Part shown: piece after piece, positions 24,677 through 32,055 of the stretch
Layout: each line of letters opens with the position of its first letter
Numbering within the stretch: the first letter of the stretch is position 1
Assembly (NCBI GenBank): GCA_003838145.1
Contig: QYZZ01000043.1
Location: forward strand, 62,001 to 126,000
Direction of reading: 5' to 3'
Length of the DNA stretch: 64,000 nucleotides
Source: Tindallia sp. MSAO_Bac2
Lineage (GTDB): Bacteria > Bacillota > Clostridia > Peptostreptococcales > Tindalliaceae
Notes under the pieces: model-generated
What the model saw: the letters and a program-made list of their open reading frames with translations, nothing else
Told to the model about the DNA's origin: nothing
Databases searched by the model: none
Program-made: the position numbers and the translations under genes

Positions 24677-25501
24677 TTAGCCAGTCTGTTTTTTTGTTTT
24701 AGTAAATTTACCTTCAATAGCTTTGGTAGGACATTTCTCAACACATATATAGCAGTTTGTACATTTGTCATAATCAATAAACGCAAGATTGTTTTCAAAT
24801 TCAATGGCGTTTTCAGGACATGCTTTTACGCATATCTGACATCCAATGCAACCAACTGAACAGTTCTGTTTTACGATTTTTCCCGAGTCGTTGCTATTGC
24901 ATGTAATAATTACCTCCTGCTCGTAGGGAACCATAGTAATAACATCTTTAGGACATGCCTGGATGCACATGTTACATGCAGTGCATTTTTCCGGTATGAT
25001 TTCAGCCAGTCCGTTATCATTCATTTTGATTGCACCAAACTGACACGCATCGTAACAGGTCCCAAGCCCCAAACAACCATATTTGCAAGATTTACTCCCG
25101 CCACTAACCATATTGGCTGCAACACAGTCCTGAATTCCATTATAAATGAATTTTTCCTTACACTCATCAGAGCCGCCTCTGCAAATTACTTTTGCTACTT
25201 TCTTAGCACTGCCGGCTACTTCAACTCCCAGTACTTTGGCAATTTCTTCGTTAGTAGCTCCGTCAGCTACCGGACAACCATCCACTGGAGCTTTTCCTTC
25301 AGCTACAGCCTTTGCAAAGCTGTCGCAGCCTGGTAATCCACATCCGCCACAATTTGCTCCGGGCAATAATTCTCTTATTGTTGCTACACGAGGGTCTGTA
25401 TCCACTTTAAATTTTTGAGAAGCAAATGCAAGACCAGCTCCAAAGACCAGACCTAGTCCGCCCAATCCTATAACTGGAAACATTATGTTTTGTATATTCA
25501 T
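24677..25501 (-). CDS. rnfB: Rnf complex iron-sulfur subunit RnfB
   Basis: RnfB is thought to take electrons from ferredoxin into the ion-pumping Rnf complex. The 274-residue product has an N-terminal membrane anchor, a four-cysteine cluster domain (LLPGANCGGCGLPGCDSFAK) and several ferredoxin motifs (CTACNMCIQACPKDV, CIGCQICVKACPENA, CTNCYICVEKCPTKA). This cluster-rich form is usual for clostridia. It is the last gene of the operon. Confidence 0.96.
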   Translation of the reverse strand: MNIQNIMFPVIGLGGLGLVFGAGLAFASQKFKVDTDPRVATIRELLPGANCGGCGLPGCDSFAKAVAEGKAPVDGCPVADGATNEEIAKVLGVEVAGSAKKVAKVICRGGSDECKEKFIYNGIQDCVAANMVSGGSKSCKYGCLGLGTCYDACQFGAIKMNDNGLAEIIPEKCTACNMCIQACPKDVITMVPYEQEVIITCNSNDSGKIVKQNCSVGCIGCQICVKACPENAIEFENNLAFIDYDKCTNCYICVEKCPTKAIEGKFTKTKKQTG

Positions 25502-25513
25502 ATCATCGCTCCT

Positions 25514-26104
25514 TTACACCAAGCCTGCAAAGCCCATAAATGCCAGAGACATCAGGCCTGCGGTTATTAATGCAATAGGAAAACCTTTGAACTCAACAGG
25601 AATATCCACAAGCTCCAAACGCTCCCGTATTGCTGCAAATAATACAATCGCCAGTGTAAATCCTATCGCTGCACCGATTGCATGGAATATAGTCTCTACT
25701 AAATTATATTCGTTTTGAATGTTTAGTATTGTAAGTCCTAAAACTGCACAATTTGTCGTAATAAGAGGCAGGTAAACACCTAAAGACTGATAAAGAACAG
25801 GACTTGTTTTTTGTATGACCATCTCAACCAATTGAACAAGTGAAGCTATAACCAATATAAAAACAATAGTTTGCATATATTGTATTCCGAGTAAATCCAG
25901 AATAAAACGCTGAGCTACAAAAGTAATTATGGATGCCATTGTCATTACGAAAGTAACCGCCATTCCCATTCCTAAAGAGGTTTCCACCTTTTTGGATACT
26001 CCCAGAAAAGGACAAATACCTAAAAATCGTGATAAAACAAAGTTGTTAACAAAGATTGCACTGATCAGGATAACAAATATTGACGAAGCTGACACGGTGA
26101 ACAC
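25514..26104 (-). CDS. rnfA: Rnf complex membrane subunit RnfA
   Basis: RnfA is a six-helix membrane subunit that with RnfE holds a membrane-embedded iron-sulfur site. Family marks are [19 protein letters not shown], with the conserved Cys, and [10 protein letters not shown]. The product is 196 residues, 12 bases before rnfB. Confidence 0.96.
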
Positions 26105-26110
26105 CTCCTA

Positions 26111-26707
26111 TTATTTTAGTCTCGCATAGACAATGCGGTTAAAGACTGCCATTAAAACGCCTAGCGCCATGAAAGCGCCGGGTGCCATTGTCATCAGAGC
26201 CATCGGTTCAAAAGAATCTCCAAACAACTGCATGTCAAAAACAGTGCCGAATCCGATTACTTCTCTGACAATCCCCAGCAATACAAGAGCTCCGGTAAAC
26301 CCGAGACCCATACCCAATGCATCTGTAATGGAACCAACAGTCGAATTCTTCGATGCAAAGGATTCCGCTCTTCCTAATATCAGGCAGTTTACAACTATCA
26401 GGGGAATAAAGATTCCTAGTGCCTGGTTTAGAGCAGGAAAGTATGCTTCTAAGATCATTCCTACCATAGTAACAAATGTGGCAATTACAACAATAAAACA
26501 TGGAATTCGAATTTTGGAAGGTATAAACTTCCTCAGCAAAGAAATAACTATATTAGATCCCAGAAGGACAGATGTGGTAGCCATGCCCATCCCGAAGCTG
26601 TTGAATGCAGTATTTGTTACCGCAAGTATAGGACACATGCCAAGTGCCTGAATAAATACTGGATTGTCCATCACCAGTCCTCTTGAAAAAATTTTAGAAA
26701 GTTTCAC
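26111..26707 (-). CDS. rnfE: Rnf complex membrane subunit RnfE
   Basis: RnfE pairs with its paralogue RnfA in the membrane. The marks are NPVFIQALGMCPILAVTNTA and LIVVNCLILGRAESFA, each with a conserved Cys. The 198-residue product lies 6 bases before rnfA. Six membrane segments are visible as alternating hydrophobic stretches. Confidence 0.96.
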   Translation of the reverse strand: MKLSKIFSRGLVMDNPVFIQALGMCPILAVTNTAFNSFGMGMATTSVLLGSNIVISLLRKFIPSKIRIPCFIVVIATFVTMVGMILEAYFPALNQALGIFIPLIVVNCLILGRAESFASKNSTVGSITDALGMGLGFTGALVLLGIVREVIGFGTVFDMQLFGDSFEPMALMTMAPGAFMALGVLMAVFNRIVYARLK

Positions 26708-26724: not shown

Positions 26725-27261
26725 CTACCTATTTTTAAGAATATCTTCAAACAAGTCTGCCGCTGCTTCCACTGCATTATTTACTGCATCGCTGGAAGCG
26801 GTAGCACCGCTGATAGCATCTACTGATACATCTTCAGCCGTTTTGTTTCCTCTATAATTCTCCAAAAAGCTGTCTTCTGTAATCTTATCACCAAGACCAG
26901 GCGTCTCTGATTGGCTCATTACCTGAACACCACTAATGGTGCCGTCTCCAATAATGCCAACCATTACTTCAACTTCGCCGCCGTAGCCTTGTGCGTATGA
27001 TTTAATGGCAAACCCGGCCACAGAACCATTTTCATAGCCTACATATGCTTCCCGGATTCTGTTCCGCGAAAGTACTTCATCATCTTCAATCATTTCGAAC
27101 TCATCTGCGTCTCTAATAAGGGATTCGATGGATGACAGCACTTCTTCAAGTGAACGTTCCATGATGATACCTTCTGTAAAGCTATTCGTCATCCCCAGCA
27201 CCATTCCAGAAACACTGGTGATAATCAGCAAAATAACGCCCATCTTCATAATATCACGCAT
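26725..27261 (-). CDS. rnfG: Rnf complex FMN-binding subunit RnfG
   Basis: RnfG carries FMN covalently bound to a threonine outside the membrane. The attachment motif is SGATAS in VDAISGATASSDAVNNAV, near residue 154. One N-terminal membrane helix (MGVILLIITSVSGMVLG) anchors it. The 178-residue product overlaps rnfD by eight bases. Confidence 0.95.
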   Translation of the reverse strand: MRDIMKMGVILLIITSVSGMVLGMTNSFTEGIIMERSLEEVLSSIESLIRDADEFEMIEDDEVLSRNRIREAYVGYENGSVAGFAIKSYAQGYGGEVEVMVGIIGDGTISGVQVMSQSETPGLGDKITEDSFLENYRGNKTAEDVSVDAISGATASSDAVNNAVEAAADLFEDILKNR

Positions 27262-28207
27262 TTTGTTTCTTCACCTCCCCATATATAGTAGGAACCGTGT
27301 ATCTATCAATTAGTGGCGTTGCTACATTCATTAATAGTATTGAAAATCCTACCCCTTCATTGTAACCACCAAAAATACGGATGGTAGCAGTCAGAACACC
27401 ACAGCCAATAGCATAAATTACTTTTCCTTTGGTGGTAAGTGGCGAGGATGCATAGTCAGTTGCCATATAAATGGCTCCAATCATTAAACCACCGGATACA
27501 ACATGATATGCCATATAATCCACATTAAAACCACTGTTTAAAAGTGTCAGCAGTGCAACAGTTCCTATGTATACCGCCGGAATATGAATGGATATGACTT
27601 TTCGGTACAAGAGGTAAACTCCTCCTAAAAGCAACAGTAATGCAGATGTTTCGCCCATACATCCGCCGATATTTCCGATAAAGGCATCAAATAAGGACGG
27701 AGCTCCCGCAGGCACTACTACTTCTCCCTTGACAAAGCTAAGTGGTGTTGCTGCAGAAATCATGTCGACCCCCGGATTGACCCATTCGGTCATGCGTTCC
27801 GTCCATGACAGAGTCAGCAAAATCCTTGCTGCAAGAGCCGGGTTCATAAAGTTCTTTCCAAGTCCGCCAAAAAATTGTTTTACCACAACGATTGCAAAAA
27901 CTGATCCAATGGCCGGCAGCCACCAGGATACGGCGGGAGATAAGTTCAGTGCAATAAGTAGTCCAGTAACAACAGCACTCATATCACTGATGGTAACTGG
28001 TTGTTTTCTGATTTTTTGTACTGCAAATTCGGCCAATACCGCCGCAATCACCGCAACCAAAATCAGCATGGCTGCTCTGGTTCTAAAAAAATAAACTGCT
28101 CCCAGTGTAGCTGGGATTAATGCAATAACAACATCACCCATAACCTTTGATACATTATTATCGTCTCTTATATGAGGTGATGAAGACACAACGAGTTTCT
28201 GCTCCAT
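27254..28207 (-). CDS. rnfD: Rnf complex membrane subunit RnfD
   Basis: RnfD is a multi-helix membrane subunit with covalent FMN on a threonine. The likely site is AATPLSFVKGE near residue 153. Family marks include SSPHIRDDNNVSKVMGDV, FFGGLGKNFMNPALAARI and YMATDYASSPLT. The 317-residue product starts at an ATG behind CAGGAGGG. It lies 28 bases after rnfC. Confidence 0.95.
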   Translation of the reverse strand: MEQKLVVSSSPHIRDDNNVSKVMGDVVIALIPATLGAVYFFRTRAAMLILVAVIAAVLAEFAVQKIRKQPVTISDMSAVVTGLLIALNLSPAVSWWLPAIGSVFAIVVVKQFFGGLGKNFMNPALAARILLTLSWTERMTEWVNPGVDMISAATPLSFVKGEVVVPAGAPSLFDAFIGNIGGCMGETSALLLLLGGVYLLYRKVISIHIPAVYIGTVALLTLLNSGFNVDYMAYHVVSGGLMIGAIYMATDYASSPLTTKGKVIYAIGCGVLTATIRIFGGYNEGVGFSILLMNVATPLIDRYTVPTIYGEVKKQNA

Positions 28208-28235: not shown

Positions 28236-29564
28236 TTATTTCTTTTGTTTCTGTTTTTCAGCCATAATGCTGTTTTTTGCAACTCTTATGGAATGCAAAA
28301 GTGGTCTTTTTGAAGGGCAAACATATGAACAGGAGCCACATTCAATACAGTCCAATGCATTATATCGATCAGCATCCGACATTCGGTCTGCCAATGCATA
28401 TTCACTGATAGTCAGCGGCATAAGGTGAATTGGACAGCTGTCGATACATTTTGAGCAACGAATACAGTTTACAGGCTCGGGAATCACAGCTTCTTTTTCA
28501 TCAAATACCAGGACCCCGGAAGTTCCTTTTGCTACCGGATAATCATCCGAGTCCTGAGCAATCCCCATCATAGGACCTCCAAAAATAATTTTTCCAGGGG
28601 TTTTGGAATAACCTCCGCATGCTTCCACTAATTCTTTTATTGGTGTACCTATTTTAACTTTTAAATTTTTAGGTTCTGTTATACATGATCCCGTTACTGT
28701 AGTAATTCTTTCTACAAGCGGCAACCCTGTTTTGTATGTTTGCGCGATTTGATAAGCAGAGCCCACGTTATTGACCACCACACCTACTTCCATTGGAAGC
28801 CCCCCGGAAGGAACCTGTCTTTTCGTACAAGCATCAATGAGCTGTTTCTCTGCTCCCTGTGGATATTTTGTCTGCAAAGCGACAACATGTATCGGATCTT
28901 TTTCTGCAATTACGTTTAAAACTGCATCTATGGCATCCGGCTTATTAGCTTCAATAGCTATGATACCTTTTTCGGCCCGAACAGATTTCATGATGATTTT
29001 AAGTCCCAGCACCAATGTTTCCGGATCTTCCAGCATCAGACGATGGTCTGCTGTCAAATAGGGTTCGCATTCGGCTCCATTTATAATAATGGTATCAATT
29101 GGTTTTTCTGGTGGAGGTGATAGTTTTACATGTGTTGGAAATGTAGCTCCACCCATACCAACCATGCCTGCATTTTTGACCATTTCAATGATCTGATTTT
29201 CATCCATATCCTCAAGTGGCCCATAGGGCTGAATGTCTGGATGCATTTCGTCATGGCCGTCAGATTCAATTACAACACATTCTGCTTCCCGACCGCCGCC
29301 AACCTGCTTCTTAACTACCTGTTTCACTGTTCCGGAAACAGTTGCGTGTACTGGTGCAGATACAAAACCCTGTGGTTCACCTATTATCTGTCCCACTTTC
29401 ACTTCATCTTTTGGTTTAACCAGAGATTTACAGGGAGCACCAATATGCTGATGCAAAGGAATGATAACCTCTTTTGGCACAGGCATCGATTCAATCGCTT
29501 TTGATGCAGTTGCCGACTTGGAATCCGGTGGATGAATTCCGCCTTTGAATGTTAAGAAATTCAT
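28236..29564 (-). CDS. rnfC: Rnf complex NAD-interacting subunit RnfC
   Basis: RnfC is the NAD-facing, FMN- and iron-sulfur-containing subunit. The 442-residue product opens FLTFKGGIHPPDSKSATA. It carries a glycine-rich nucleotide-binding loop (GMVGMGGATFPTHVKL), a SLBB domain and two 4Fe-4S motifs (CIRCSKCIDSCPIHL, CIECGSCSYVCPSKRPL). I prefer the ATG at 29564 because AAAGGG lies about 8 bases before it; a GTG three codons earlier touches that site. It begins 50 bases after the upstream signalling module. Confidence 0.95.
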   Translation of the reverse strand: MNFLTFKGGIHPPDSKSATASKAIESMPVPKEVIIPLHQHIGAPCKSLVKPKDEVKVGQIIGEPQGFVSAPVHATVSGTVKQVVKKQVGGGREAECVVIESDGHDEMHPDIQPYGPLEDMDENQIIEMVKNAGMVGMGGATFPTHVKLSPPPEKPIDTIIINGAECEPYLTADHRLMLEDPETLVLGLKIIMKSVRAEKGIIAIEANKPDAIDAVLNVIAEKDPIHVVALQTKYPQGAEKQLIDACTKRQVPSGGLPMEVGVVVNNVGSAYQIAQTYKTGLPLVERITTVTGSCITEPKNLKVKIGTPIKELVEACGGYSKTPGKIIFGGPMMGIAQDSDDYPVAKGTSGVLVFDEKEAVIPEPVNCIRCSKCIDSCPIHLMPLTISEYALADRMSDADRYNALDCIECGSCSYVCPSKRPLLHSIRVAKNSIMAEKQKQKK

Positions 29565-29614
29565 ATTTTTCACCCTTTCATATCATAAACAACATAATTG
29601 CTGTTTTATTTGTA

Positions 29615-30166
29615 TTATGTGGTAGTAGCGGCTATTGATCTAAGTTCTTCCGTCAGGCTTTCCCGAATCCACACAATAACATCCGGGTGCGTTAACGGAG
29701 TTTCCTGTAACACTTGTCTGATTTCTGCCGTGTCAAATTTAAACTGTCCCTGGTCAGTTAAGTGTTCATATAATAAATCGAAATCTCTTCCGTATAACAA
29801 TATGGTGCAGATTGTCTCCGGGATATCACCCAGGGGTACACGATCGATATGACTGTGCTGAAAAGTTGCTTTTATAGTAGTACCGGAATTAACTTCCGAA
29901 TGAATACGGAGGGATCCTTCACATTCCTCTGCAGCCTGCTTAAGCAGAGGAATACCCAATCCTACTTTTCTGGTTGTTCTGGATGTTACAAAAGGATCCG
30001 TTACTTTCATCAGCATTTCCTCGTCCATTCCAAAACCGTCATCTTCAACAACTATAGTTAATTCATCATCTTTTATGCTTTCAGCAATTTTCAAATTAAT
30101 TCTTTTCGCATCAGCAGTTATTGAGTTTTGTACAATATCTAATATATGCAGTGCCAGTTCTTTCAT
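29615..30166 (-). CDS. Histidine-kinase-type ATPase domain protein (hydrogenase/Rnf-linked)
   Basis: The 183-residue protein is essentially one GHKL ATPase domain with an N-box (LALHILDIVQNSITADAKR), G1 box (VEDDGFGMDEEML) and G2 box (KVGLGIPLLKQAAEEC). The C-terminal tail has no recognisable domain. No phospho-acceptor His domain is visible, so it may phosphorylate or bind a partner rather than act as a complete kinase. The ATG at 30166 follows CTGGAGATG; the longer frame overlaps the PHP gene. Similar genes accompany electron-bifurcating hydrogenase operons in clostridia; here the downstream genes are rnfCDGEAB. Confidence 0.8.
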   Translation of the reverse strand: MKELALHILDIVQNSITADAKRINLKIAESIKDDELTIVVEDDGFGMDEEMLMKVTDPFVTSRTTRKVGLGIPLLKQAAEECEGSLRIHSEVNSGTTIKATFQHSHIDRVPLGDIPETICTILLYGRDFDLLYEHLTDQGQFKFDTAEIRQVLQETPLTHPDVIVWIRESLTEELRSIAATTT

Positions 30167-30186
30167 TGCATCATCTCCAGACACTA

Positions 30187-30900
30187 TTAGATTTTTAACC
30201 ATTGAATCAAGCTTGATGCTGTCAGGCTGCTTAATTCCACAAAAAAAATCCTCTCCATAATATTGGCCAGGCAATGTGCATCTGAGCTAATGATATGTCG
30301 GTACTTTTTATACTCAGGATGACGGGATAAAAAAAGTTCTTTTTCAGTACCATTGAACAGCTCAACACAACCTATCGGCAAGTGGGTTGGCAGGAAACCC
30401 AGAGAAGACATTACGCTAAAACTGCTCCGGTTAATATGTGCCGGAACAGCAGCACCTCCAAATTGATGAATCAACCTGACCGTATCGTCAAAAGAAATTT
30501 GCAGAGCATTCATTAAAAGCAGTTCTTCTTCGCCAATTATTACATCTTTTGAATCAAATAACAACTGTTTCCCGAAAATTTCCGGACGATTTCTCAGTCC
30601 CATTTGGTTTGACTTTAAAGTACAATAGAATTCCTCCAGAAGCTGATAGCTATCAAAGTATGCCAGCAGGTGAACCTCTTCCTGTGTCGTAATTTCAATG
30701 CCTGGCACAACAACCATGTTAAGCTTTTTGCCAGCTTCAATGCATGGCTGAACATTACCAATTGCGTTGTGATCGGTAACCGCAATTATATCCAACCCTT
30801 TAATTGCTGCCATATTTACAATATTATTAGGTGTCATTTCTTCCTCACCACATGGCGACAAGGCCGTGTGTATATGAAGATCCACAGCATAAGAATGCAT
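30187..30900 (-). CDS. PHP domain metal-dependent phosphoesterase
   Basis: The 237-residue protein has the PHP signature HIHTALSPCGEEE near residue 9, then AVTDHNAIGNV, GIEITTQEEVHLLAYF and a C-terminal SSDAHCLANI. PHP proteins are phosphoesterases using two or three metal ions. It lies two bases after a DRTGG gene and 20 before the ATPase gene, so it belongs to the signalling module. A possible role is dephosphorylating a small messenger or protein; this is inference. Confidence 0.85.
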   Translation of the reverse strand: MHSYAVDLHIHTALSPCGEEEMTPNNIVNMAAIKGLDIIAVTDHNAIGNVQPCIEAGKKLNMVVVPGIEITTQEEVHLLAYFDSYQLLEEFYCTLKSNQMGLRNRPEIFGKQLLFDSKDVIIGEEELLLMNALQISFDDTVRLIHQFGGAAVPAHINRSSFSVMSSLGFLPTHLPIGCVELFNGTEKELFLSRHPEYKKYRHIISSDAHCLANIMERIFFVELSSLTASSLIQWLKI

Positions 30901-30902
30901 CG

Positions 30903-31235
30903 TTAATTCCCCAAATCTATCCTTTTGGCTATCTGATAAGCAGTTAGTTCTGATCGTAGTACGGGAATTTTCTCCTCTTCAGCTTTAAGCAGTGTGTCCG
31001 GATCTACATGAGCATTTTCTGCAATAATAATGCAGTTTATGCCCACCATTACCGCTACAGCAACAACATTAACATTCGTTTGAATGGTTATCCATACACT
31101 TTCTGCTTCTGCATTTCCAATTACCCAGCTAAGCATATCACCTATATAAACATCATTAATAACAGTTGCTTCTATTTCTTTCTCAGCGGCAAGAATCTCC
31201 AGATCCAGTTGTTGCTGCAATTCTTTTACAGTCAT
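30903..31235 (-). CDS. DRTGG domain protein (second of two)
   Basis: This 110-residue protein consists of one DRTGG-type domain, a fold first noted next to CBS domains and in phosphotransacetylases. It shows VKELQQQLDLEILAAEKE, then INDVYIGDMLSWVIGNA and VAVAVMVGINCIIIAENAHVDPD. It is probably a nucleotide- or metabolite-sensing unit. It shares an ancestor with the 32.0-kb neighbour but is clearly diverged. It precedes the PHP gene by two bases. Confidence 0.75.
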   Translation of the reverse strand: MTVKELQQQLDLEILAAEKEIEATVINDVYIGDMLSWVIGNAEAESVWITIQTNVNVVAVAVMVGINCIIIAENAHVDPDTLLKAEEEKIPVLRSELTAYQIAKRIDLGN

Positions 31236-31258
31236 GTTTTCCCTCCACAGCCTGAGAT

Positions 31259-31678
31259 TTATAAATTAAATCCAATGGTAATCCGGGTACACTTTCCAAC
31301 TTCTGATTGTATATCAAAATCATCAGCACACCTTTTTATATTTGGCAAACCCATACCGGCTCCAAATCCTAATTCCCTTACATCTTTTGTAGCGGTGGAA
31401 TATCCTTCTTTCATGGCCAGGTCTATGTCATCAATACCGGGGCCACGATCCAAAGCAATAATTTTAATGTAATCAGACCCTATGGAAAACTCCATGGTTC
31501 CGCCATTGGAATGTATGATAATATTCATTTCCGTCTCATAGGAGGCAACAGAAACACGGCGTATCACTTCCGGATTTACTCCCACCTGCTTCATGATTTT
31601 TTTTATGCTACTGGAAACCTGTCCGGCAGATTGAAAGTCTCGTCTTTCGATAGAATATTTTCTTTGAATAGCTATCAC
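31259..31678 (-). CDS. Anti-sigma-factor-type (RsbW/SpoIIAB-like) ATPase
   Basis: The 139-residue single-domain GHKL ATPase has an N-box (SVASYETEMNIIIHS), G1 (ALDRGPGIDDIDLAM) and G2 (GFGAGMGLPNIKRCADDF), closest in style to anti-sigma serine kinases. The annotated start is GTG, but its only ribosome-binding site (GAGGTGAT) overlaps that codon. Initiation may be at the ATT three codons downstream, which would be unusual. It sits between the two DRTGG genes, so a DRTGG protein may be its partner in place of the usual anti-anti-sigma factor. Confidence 0.8.
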   Translation of the reverse strand: MIAIQRKYSIERRDFQSAGQVSSSIKKIMKQVGVNPEVIRRVSVASYETEMNIIIHSNGGTMEFSIGSDYIKIIALDRGPGIDDIDLAMKEGYSTATKDVRELGFGAGMGLPNIKRCADDFDIQSEVGKCTRITIGFNL

Positions 31679-31698
31679 CTCGTGCTTTTTTGACGTTG

Positions 31699-32055
31699 CT
31701 ATTTGTGTATTATATTTGCACCTCTTAATCCCTTTTTATATAGAATGCCTGACGTTACAAACATTATATTTTTCGTTGTCATTGTGACAATCTGGTTTTC
31801 TTCTGCCATTTTCAGCGTTTCTTCATCTGGTTTTTTTCCTCGGACAAAAACAATTGCGTTAATATCCATCATTTCCGCTGTTCTGATCGTATGAGGATTT
31901 GTCAAGCCTGTCAGTAAAATGGTTTTATCGTCCACAAACGCAAGAACATCACTCATTAAGTCTGCTGCAAAGGCGTTGGTTACTTCCCGCTCCATATGCT
32001 CATGACCTGACAGAACTTCAGCCTCCAACAACTTTTGGATTTCAAGTAATTTCAT
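31699..32055 (-). CDS. DRTGG domain protein (first of two)
   Basis: The 118-residue protein has a short N-terminal helix (MKLLEIQKLLEAEVLSG) and a DRTGG core (AFAADLMSDVLAFVDDKTIL, MMDINAIVFVRGKKPDEE). Comparable proteins sit beside electron-bifurcating [FeFe]-hydrogenase genes in clostridia and Thermotogae. It opens the module leading to rnfC. Ligand unknown; an adenine nucleotide or redox cofactor is a reasonable guess. Confidence 0.75.
   Translation of the reverse strand: MKLLEIQKLLEAEVLSGHEHMEREVTNAFAADLMSDVLAFVDDKTILLTGLTNPHTIRTAEMMDINAIVFVRGKKPDEETLKMAEENQIVTMTTKNIMFVTSGILYKKGLRGANIIHK

Follow-up and report, generated by a model that had tools for sequence, protein, structure and literature searches.

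What is the function of a set of five small signalling genes that leads directly into rnfC in Tindallia sp. MSAO_Bac2? The locus lies in a 64,000-nt stretch of contig QYZZ01000043.1 (positions 62,001 to 126,000 of the forward strand; hereafter the window), and the signalling genes and the rnf genes are all on its minus strand. The signalling genes encode two DRTGG proteins (D1 and D2), two ATPases (AT1 and AT2) and a phosphoesterase of the PHP family. In our judgement the chances are about even that the locus is the Rnf-linked version of a clostridial signalling module of six parts that tunes the ferredoxin:NAD node, the sixth part being a [FeFe]-hydrogenase-like protein of Group D, which we call HydM. 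The parts recur in a conserved order, HydM and PHP occur together in nearly all genomes that have either, and in one clade HydM occupies a second locus. The genes of the window are listed below in the order of transcription.

31699..32055, minus strand: D1, stand-alone DRTGG protein of 118 aa, first gene of the module (Pfam DRTGG 32.9 bits, cut-off 25.2)
31259..31678, minus strand: AT1, SpoIIAB/RsbW-like ATPase of 139 aa (Pfam HATPase_c_2 36.5 bits, cut-off 27.4)
30903..31235, minus strand: D2, second stand-alone DRTGG protein, 110 aa (Pfam DRTGG 34.3 bits)
30187..30900, minus strand: PHP-family phosphoesterase of 237 aa (Pfam PHP 39.3 bits, cut-off 26.4)
29615..30166, minus strand: AT2, GHKL ATPase of 183 aa extended at its C-terminus by an alpha/beta part (Pfam HATPase_c 58.9 bits, scored on the longest frame, 29615-30274)
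28236..29573, minus strand: rnfC, NADH/FMN-binding NuoF-like subunit (TIGR01945 561.5 bits; Complex1_51K 182.9 bits)
27254..28207, minus strand: rnfD (TIGR01946 322.4 bits, cut-off 207.05)
26725..27261, minus strand: rnfG (TIGR01947 119.6 bits, cut-off 102)
26111..26707, minus strand: rnfE, 198-aa frame placed only by gene order in rnfCDGEAB
25514..26104, minus strand: rnfA, 196-aa frame placed only by gene order
24677..25501, minus strand: rnfB, 274-aa frame with a Cys-rich N-terminal part, placed only by gene order

Family matches in Pfam and TIGR, together with the coordinates, bear out the first-pass annotation, which had five signalling genes running straight into rnfC. RnfC, RnfD and RnfG exceed their model cut-offs, and the E, A and B subunits are placed by order. 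The most likely start of AT2, judged from a ribosome-binding site and the starts of orthologues, is the ATG at 30166. The gap between AT2 and rnfC is short, as annotated, but measures 41 bp by longest frames rather than 50 bases, and a scan of the window found no terminator-like hairpin in it, again as annotated. Consensus promoters are uninformative here (16 found in the window vs 15.4 expected), and a search for RNA elements gave none in the AT2-rnfC gap of the six loci searched and three matches overall (one 6S and two tRNA). In five other rnf-linked loci of the window's family the gap is similarly narrow, from -4 to 39 bp. In the remaining 18 of 23 rnf-linked relative loci, all of other families, it is 121-560 bp, and the earlier description of the module as 'fused genetically' to rnf is accurate for the window's family and not for these.

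A PHP orthologue is present in 34 of the 60 genomes surveyed, its own included; two of these are counted from partial matches (G006 and G033), and the other 32 have E values of 2e-45 to 1e-159. Gene partners were read from 34 neighbourhoods fetched from 34 other genomes and annotated by homology. The module is upstream of rnfC in 23 of these, or in 24 of 34 module-bearing loci with the window counted. In four fetched loci (L076, L081, L082 and L083) it adjoins a bifurcating [FeFe] hydrogenase, standing next to NuoE-NuoF-HydA, an arrangement not found in the window. In two it adjoins acyl-CoA dehydrogenase and EtfB (L070, called by family search, and L064, called by gene order and sizes). Three loci (L057, L059 and L062) have none of these partners, one (L078) has the module at a contig end, and in one (L084, from G001) the module has been deleted. 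It had been claimed that genes of this kind are found beside bifurcating hydrogenases and are here joined to Rnf; both settings are seen, in 4 vs 24 of 34 loci. The same survey of rnf versus hydrogenase linkage had been proposed as a check, with uniqueness to this genome by recent rearrangement as the outcome that would overturn the claim, and the sharing of the arrangement by 23 of 34 fetched relatives rules that uniqueness out.

A wider scan of GTDB gave 588 named loci, and the best 80 of these were sorted by the genes within their stretch. HydA is present in 36, rnfC in five, NuoF and rnfC in four, NuoF without HydA in five, and none of HydA, rnfC or NuoF in 30. In many hydrogenase clusters the AT2 gene stands between NuoE and a Trx-NuoF gene. 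In four loci (L116, L117, L118 and L120) NuoE-AT2-Trx-NuoF follows the module and leads into rnfCDG without an intervening HydA. In family f8 (L070:11150-13113, L137 and L064) acyl-CoA dehydrogenase and EtfB follow the module, replacing Rnf or hydrogenase; these partner genes were identified by family search in L070 and by gene order in L137 and L064, L137 repeating the order of L070. What the partner complexes share is electron transfer between ferredoxin and NAD.

The sixth part lies outside the window. The genome encodes three Fe_hyd_lg_C proteins, of which contig C60 carries two and contig C110 the third, so the annotated absence of a hydrogenase is correct for the window and incorrect for the genome; a hydrogenase neighbour of the module in this genome is ruled out, the hydrogenase-like genes being on other contigs. 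The protein on C110 is HydM, whose gene begins 28 bases after an NAD kinase gene (L086:666-2748). Elsewhere HydM sits within the module: AT1 and D2 flank its gene in 10 of the 34 fetched relative loci, and the gene is upstream of PHP in 68 of the best 80 of the 588 named loci, ten of the others lacking HydM and two being cut. The switch had been called 'self-contained', which it is not, because a gene that most of the other Clostridia sampled carry within the module is on another contig in this genome. Pfam matches in HydM are Fer4 (two stretches), Fe_hyd_lg_C (87.9 bits) and FeS PF04060 (56.2 bits), and the protein consists of two N-terminal [4Fe-4S] motifs, an H-domain and a C-terminal Cx2Cx4Cx16C motif, whose cysteines (C379, C382, C387 and C404) are invariant in 12 sequences. 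The four cubane cysteines are conserved, a serine stands at the place of C299 with loss of the cysteine, a threonine stands at the place of M353, before Pro-Cys, and no PAS domain is matched at E 1e-4. According to the accessible text of PMC8163306, the marks of M2e/Group D are a C-terminal four-cysteine motif, lack of PAS, loss of C299 and Ser or Thr at M353. By its sequence features HydM is thus a Group D/M2e (TamHydS-type) [FeFe]-hydrogenase-like iron-sulphur protein.

HydM is displaced from the module in one clade: the 23 remote HydMs examined all fall on one side of one branch (SH-aLRT 99 in a quick unrooted IQ-TREE). NAD kinase adjoins HydM on the same strand in 14 of these 23 loci, hinting at a link of the putative sensor to the NAD/NADP pool. 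An extra D1-like gene is found beside the remote HydM in three of the 23 (G016, G038 and G045; phmmer 69-78 bits), which indicates that in these genomes, too, HydM has a DRTGG-like gene as its partner; the one such protein tested, from G016, has no Pfam match at 1e-4. After Rnf distances are accounted for, the distances between HydMs still correlate with those between modules (partial r 0.70 in 14 genomes, 0 of 2000 permutations). The neighbourhood of HydM could also be taken to mean that the module controls hydrogenase or NAD(P) metabolism with no effect on Rnf, and that the rnf neighbourhood is historical. Such an explanation would account for the HydM-NAD kinase pair, for the wide AT2-rnfC gaps in 18 of 23 relative loci and for the presence of rnfC in 57 of the 60 genomes, with or without the module. 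It does not sit well with rnfC linkage in 23 of 34 fetched relative loci, with the -4 to 39 bp gaps within the window's family or with the recurrence of rnf linkage in L116-L118 and L120, where NuoE-AT2-Trx-NuoF intervenes, and we consider it very unlikely.

Co-occurrence ties HydM to the module regardless of where its gene lies. Among the 60 genomes, own included, PHP and HydM are both present in 34, PHP only in none, HydM only in one (G058, 63% complete) and neither in 25. Among 245 class-level genomes the corresponding counts are 113, 1, 4 and 127, and the two genes are within 8 kb of one another in 105 of the 113 genomes having both. Both sets of counts ignore relatedness. The surveys overlap, in that the 60- and 245-genome sets have G000 and certain other genomes in common, and genomes with G handles recur among the named loci; two pairs of HydM rows are identical (L063/L125 and L081/L164). 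The 245-genome rows carry no neighbour genes, and Rnf or hydrogenase linkage was counted in the other sets only. Stronger evidence than these counts comes from a joint loss in G001, a genome of the same genus. There, tblastn finds only D1 residues 2-35 and PHP residues 196-231 before an intact rnfC (84% identity), with an additional 15-residue match to AT2 that overlaps the PHP fragment. No HydM orthologue is found in G001, and HydG and HydF are retained. In G006 PHP and HydM are both broken into pieces, which is only suggestive because this assembly is 75% complete.

The state of the H-cluster in HydM bears on what it would sense. Full H-cluster maturases were not detected in the window's genome and several relatives that retain HydM. 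HydF and HydG over cut-off are both lacking in 12 of 35 HydM genomes (G000, G004, G005, G006, G011, G019, G022, G023, G039, G042, G047 and G050; a HydF fragment of 156.7 bits in G022 is below cut-off and counted absent). The window's genome, which is 97.5% complete, has no HydE, HydF or HydG over cut-off, and two further maturase-negative genomes (G019 and G047) are single contigs. HydE is over cut-off in one of the 13 genomes searched, the HydF-bearing G017; G006 is outside those 13. The module as a follower of H-cluster maturation is not supported, as its presence is not associated with that of the HydF/HydG set (22/12/19/7, p=0.58).

The lysine that we take to hold the diiron site of HydA is K358 in CpI numbering; number and role are our assumption and are absent from PMC8163306. 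Arginine stands in its place in HydM of the window's genome, and in 14 of the 23 remote HydMs. Under hand-set labels of linkage, lysine is present in 42 of 42 hydrogenase-linked HydM rows (37 of 37 where HydA itself is seen, HydA being outside the stretch in the other 5 of the 42) and arginine in 15 of 28 Rnf-linked rows. Residues other than lysine call for six changes on the tree, and arginine marks two separate Rnf-linked groups, the remote group and L116-L120; HydM of L116, L117, L118 and L120 likewise has arginine. Arginine goes with absence of maturases (9/14 vs 2/19, p=0.002, relatedness uncorrected) in a table of 33 of the 35 HydM genomes, G006 with its broken HydM and G055, whose HydM was not fetched, being left out. 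Second HydM copies in G032 and G049 are outside the alignment.

These features suggest that the HydM of the window's lineage is probably an iron-sulphur protein that senses redox state and has no diiron subsite. A broader proposal, tentative but possible, is that a hydrogenase-fold sensor minus its diiron centre has become a maturase-independent sensor of ferredoxin redox state, and forms with the kinase/DRTGG/PHP relay a portable control cassette. The cassette would attach to the enzyme that balances ferredoxin against NADH in a given lineage (HydABC, Rnf or acyl-CoA dehydrogenase/Etf), here to Rnf, with a second branch to NAD kinase. The other way to view HydM is as a true H2 sensor with a full H-cluster, through which the module would set Rnf output by H2 partial pressure, much as has been proposed for the sensory hydrogenases that neighbour HydABC. 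In favour of this view, all four cubane cysteines are kept, the same-genus genomes G002 and G003 have HydG and HydF alongside an arginine-type HydM, and TamHydS of the same group catalyses H2 chemistry (PMC8163306, from its accessible text). The arginine at the diiron lysine in those 14 remote HydMs, together with HydG, HydF and HydE below cut-off in the window's genome, G004, G005, G019 and G047, makes an H2 sensor rather unlikely.

A second hydrogenase-like protein, of 758 aa, is encoded on contig C60 (L015:7250-9526, minus strand) of this genome, whose assembly yielded no HydE, HydF or HydG over cut-off. It combines 4Fe-4S motifs, an [FeFe]-hydrogenase domain and an FeS domain with a sigma-54 activator domain and a Fis-type HTH, and by its domain content is a predicted hydrogenase-like domain built into a transcription activator. 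It adjoins a group A6-type HydA (over the NCBIfam cut-off) and a shortened HydB-like protein.

D1 and D2 both exceed the Pfam cut-off for DRTGG, and D1 also matches by fold: its AlphaFold model (pLDDT 93.1) matches the DRTGG structure 2ioj (AF1212) with TM 0.82, and also the CBS-DRTGG region of the C. perfringens pyrophosphatase. A serine is conserved at the equivalent motif in both, S35 in D1 (0.99 of 100 sequences, as is M34) and S36 in D2 (105/105), D33, W48 and N56 of D2 also being invariant in the 105. In PHP the residues H9, H11, D43, H44, E69, H77, H155, D207 and H209, which we take to be metal ligands, are invariant in 22 sequences and conserved at 0.99 or above in 112. The nucleotide-binding motifs are conserved in wide samples of both AT1 and AT2; N52, H56, D77, G79, G81 and G104-L111 of AT1 are invariant in 101 sequences. 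The best NCBIfam matches of AT1 are anti-sigma factors, at scores below cut-off (spIIAB 42.7/135 bits and RsbW 22.4/145 bits), and it is a candidate serine kinase or partner-switch ATPase. The first-pass annotation saw no histidine acceptor with the ATPases, and no histidine phospho-acceptor domain is matched in either at E 0.01. The AlphaFold model of AT2 (pLDDT 88.6) resembles the ATPase folds of histidine kinases and of MutL-type proteins alike, and so leaves room for a chaperone-like role of the GHKL ATPases, in which the module would assemble, repair or activate ferredoxin/NADH iron-sulphur complexes and not act as a relay. The structural diversity of the partners (Rnf, HydABC, NuoEF plus Rnf, acyl-CoA dehydrogenase/Etf) would suit such a system. 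The anti-sigma-factor affinity of AT1, the regulatory DRTGG fold of D1, a likely sensor that is hydrogenase-like, and the persistence of Rnf without the module in G001 and other module-free genomes all argue for a relay instead, and an assembly role seems unlikely.

How the module would act with HydM on Rnf can be outlined from sequence and gene order. The six parts are D1, AT1, HydM, D2, PHP and AT2. The two N-terminal [4Fe-4S] clusters of HydM would read reduced ferredoxin, plus H2 where the H-cluster is whole, and the C-terminal Cx2Cx4Cx16C cluster would pass the resulting state on to AT1, D1 and D2. AT1 may then phosphorylate the DRTGG proteins or switch partners with them in the manner of SpoIIAB, and PHP could undo the phosphoryl signal. 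AT2 would act on the NADH-binding, NuoF-like subunit or on its expression; this target is indicated by the place of the AT2 gene, which precedes the NuoF-like rnfC here and separates NuoE from Trx-NuoF in many hydrogenase clusters. The net effect would be to tune the ferredoxin:NAD node, through Rnf in this organism and through HydABC or acyl-CoA dehydrogenase/Etf in others.

Several observations weigh against an Rnf-linked module built around a redox-sensing HydM. In three loci of family f7 the stretch contains the module and no AT2, rnfC or HydA, and in 30 of the best 80 of the 588 named loci neither partner is within the stretch, in some because the contig ends. The 121-560 bp gaps in other families mean that co-transcription of AT2 and rnfC is not general, and G001, with Rnf and no module, shows that the module is dispensable for having Rnf. 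AT1 fails the equivalog test for SpoIIAB and RsbW, and its superfamily is common to both. With regard to HydM, 13 of the 28 Rnf-linked rows keep the lysine, and the switch of context amounts to two tree changes, close to a single event (two pairs in the independent-pairs test, median p 1). Maturases are present in five genomes with arginine-type HydM (G002, G003, G008, G033 and G058). Full-length HydA-like proteins are kept in the window's genome, G019 and G047 with no HydE, HydF or HydG over cut-off, so a gap in detection or assembly, or another route of maturation, is possible.

SpoIIAB/SpoIIAA and RsbW/RsbV are partner-switching systems, and AT1 has their ATPase fold, with invariant nucleotide-binding motifs. 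The module differs from them in having no gene for a STAS partner or sigma factor, and the DRTGG proteins stand in that place. The DRTGG-containing regulatory region of clostridial pyrophosphatase binds nucleotides. The predicted fold of D1 matches the CBS-DRTGG region of this enzyme (3l2b, 3l31) and AF1212 (2ioj) with TMq 0.70-0.82, but D1 and D2 are stand-alone single domains, with no CBS or enzyme domain. Nearest to HydM is TamHydS of Thermoanaerobacter mathranii (Group D/M2e), described in the accessible text of PMC8163306, with the same motifs and H-domain, no PAS, no Cys at C299 and a hydroxyl residue at M353. In Thermoanaerobacter thermocopriae (L175) HydM has Ser at M353 and Leu at M497, as that text reports for TamHydS, and sits inside the same module, before NuoE-AT2-Trx-NuoF-HydA. 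The window's HydM differs from TamHydS in lying away from the module, by NAD kinase, in its Arg at the diiron lysine and in having its module by Rnf. The accessible text of PMC8163306 also places the C-terminal-type cluster of group C sensors between H-domain and PAS domain.

Two other reports come close. PMC3608648 describes, in its main text, a histidine-kinase gene and a group D-like hydrogenase upstream of A1-type bifurcating clusters in Thermoanaerobacter, a neighbourhood like the module in having both genes upstream of a bifurcating operon; DRTGG and PHP are terms absent from that main text, and Rnf is treated apart there, unlinked to the module in the part available. HylA of the bifurcating formate dehydrogenase FdhF2/HylCBA is, as HydM here would be, a hydrogenase-like protein whose role involves no H-cluster catalysis, but lacks the L1-L3 H-cluster motifs (PMC6085437, in the part available), whereas HydM retains the cubane cysteines. 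The AAA-DRTGG protein in the available part of PMC10102598 is unrelated to the module. Earlier papers thus describe sensory Group D hydrogenases and a kinase-like neighbour (PMC8163306 and PMC3608648, as far as their accessible texts go), and the six-gene set, its Rnf link, the relocation of HydM and the maturase loss were not found in the accessible portions of the open-access literature searched.

Two further loci of the genome (L019 on contig C121 and L020 on contig C105) each carry an extra rnfC (TIGR01945 over cut-off) and an rnfD-like frame, with no other rnf-like gene noticed in the stretch. Their neighbours, read by eye, are molybdopterin oxidoreductase and DmsB-like ferredoxin subunits, and RnfCD may serve there as a membrane and electron module. 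Formate-dehydrogenase-like genes at L019:2599-5283, L020:8603-11602 and L017:1-1124 (all minus strand) contain an in-frame TGA in the motif DHCARL*H, and the genome therefore probably uses selenocysteine.

How Group D sensory hydrogenases transmit their signal is an open question in the accessible text of PMC8163306. The near-perfect co-occurrence of HydM and the module names candidate signalling partners and makes this question directly testable, and the natural loss in the same genus (G001) and a single residue position are offered for such tests. Through its Rnf-linked branch the module would provide a control circuit for a main ion pump of anaerobes, and would show a hydrogenase fold that outlasted H-cluster assembly in a sensing role. 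What was once a sensor of hydrogen may in this way have become, in these cells, a general redox sensor that serves energy conservation.

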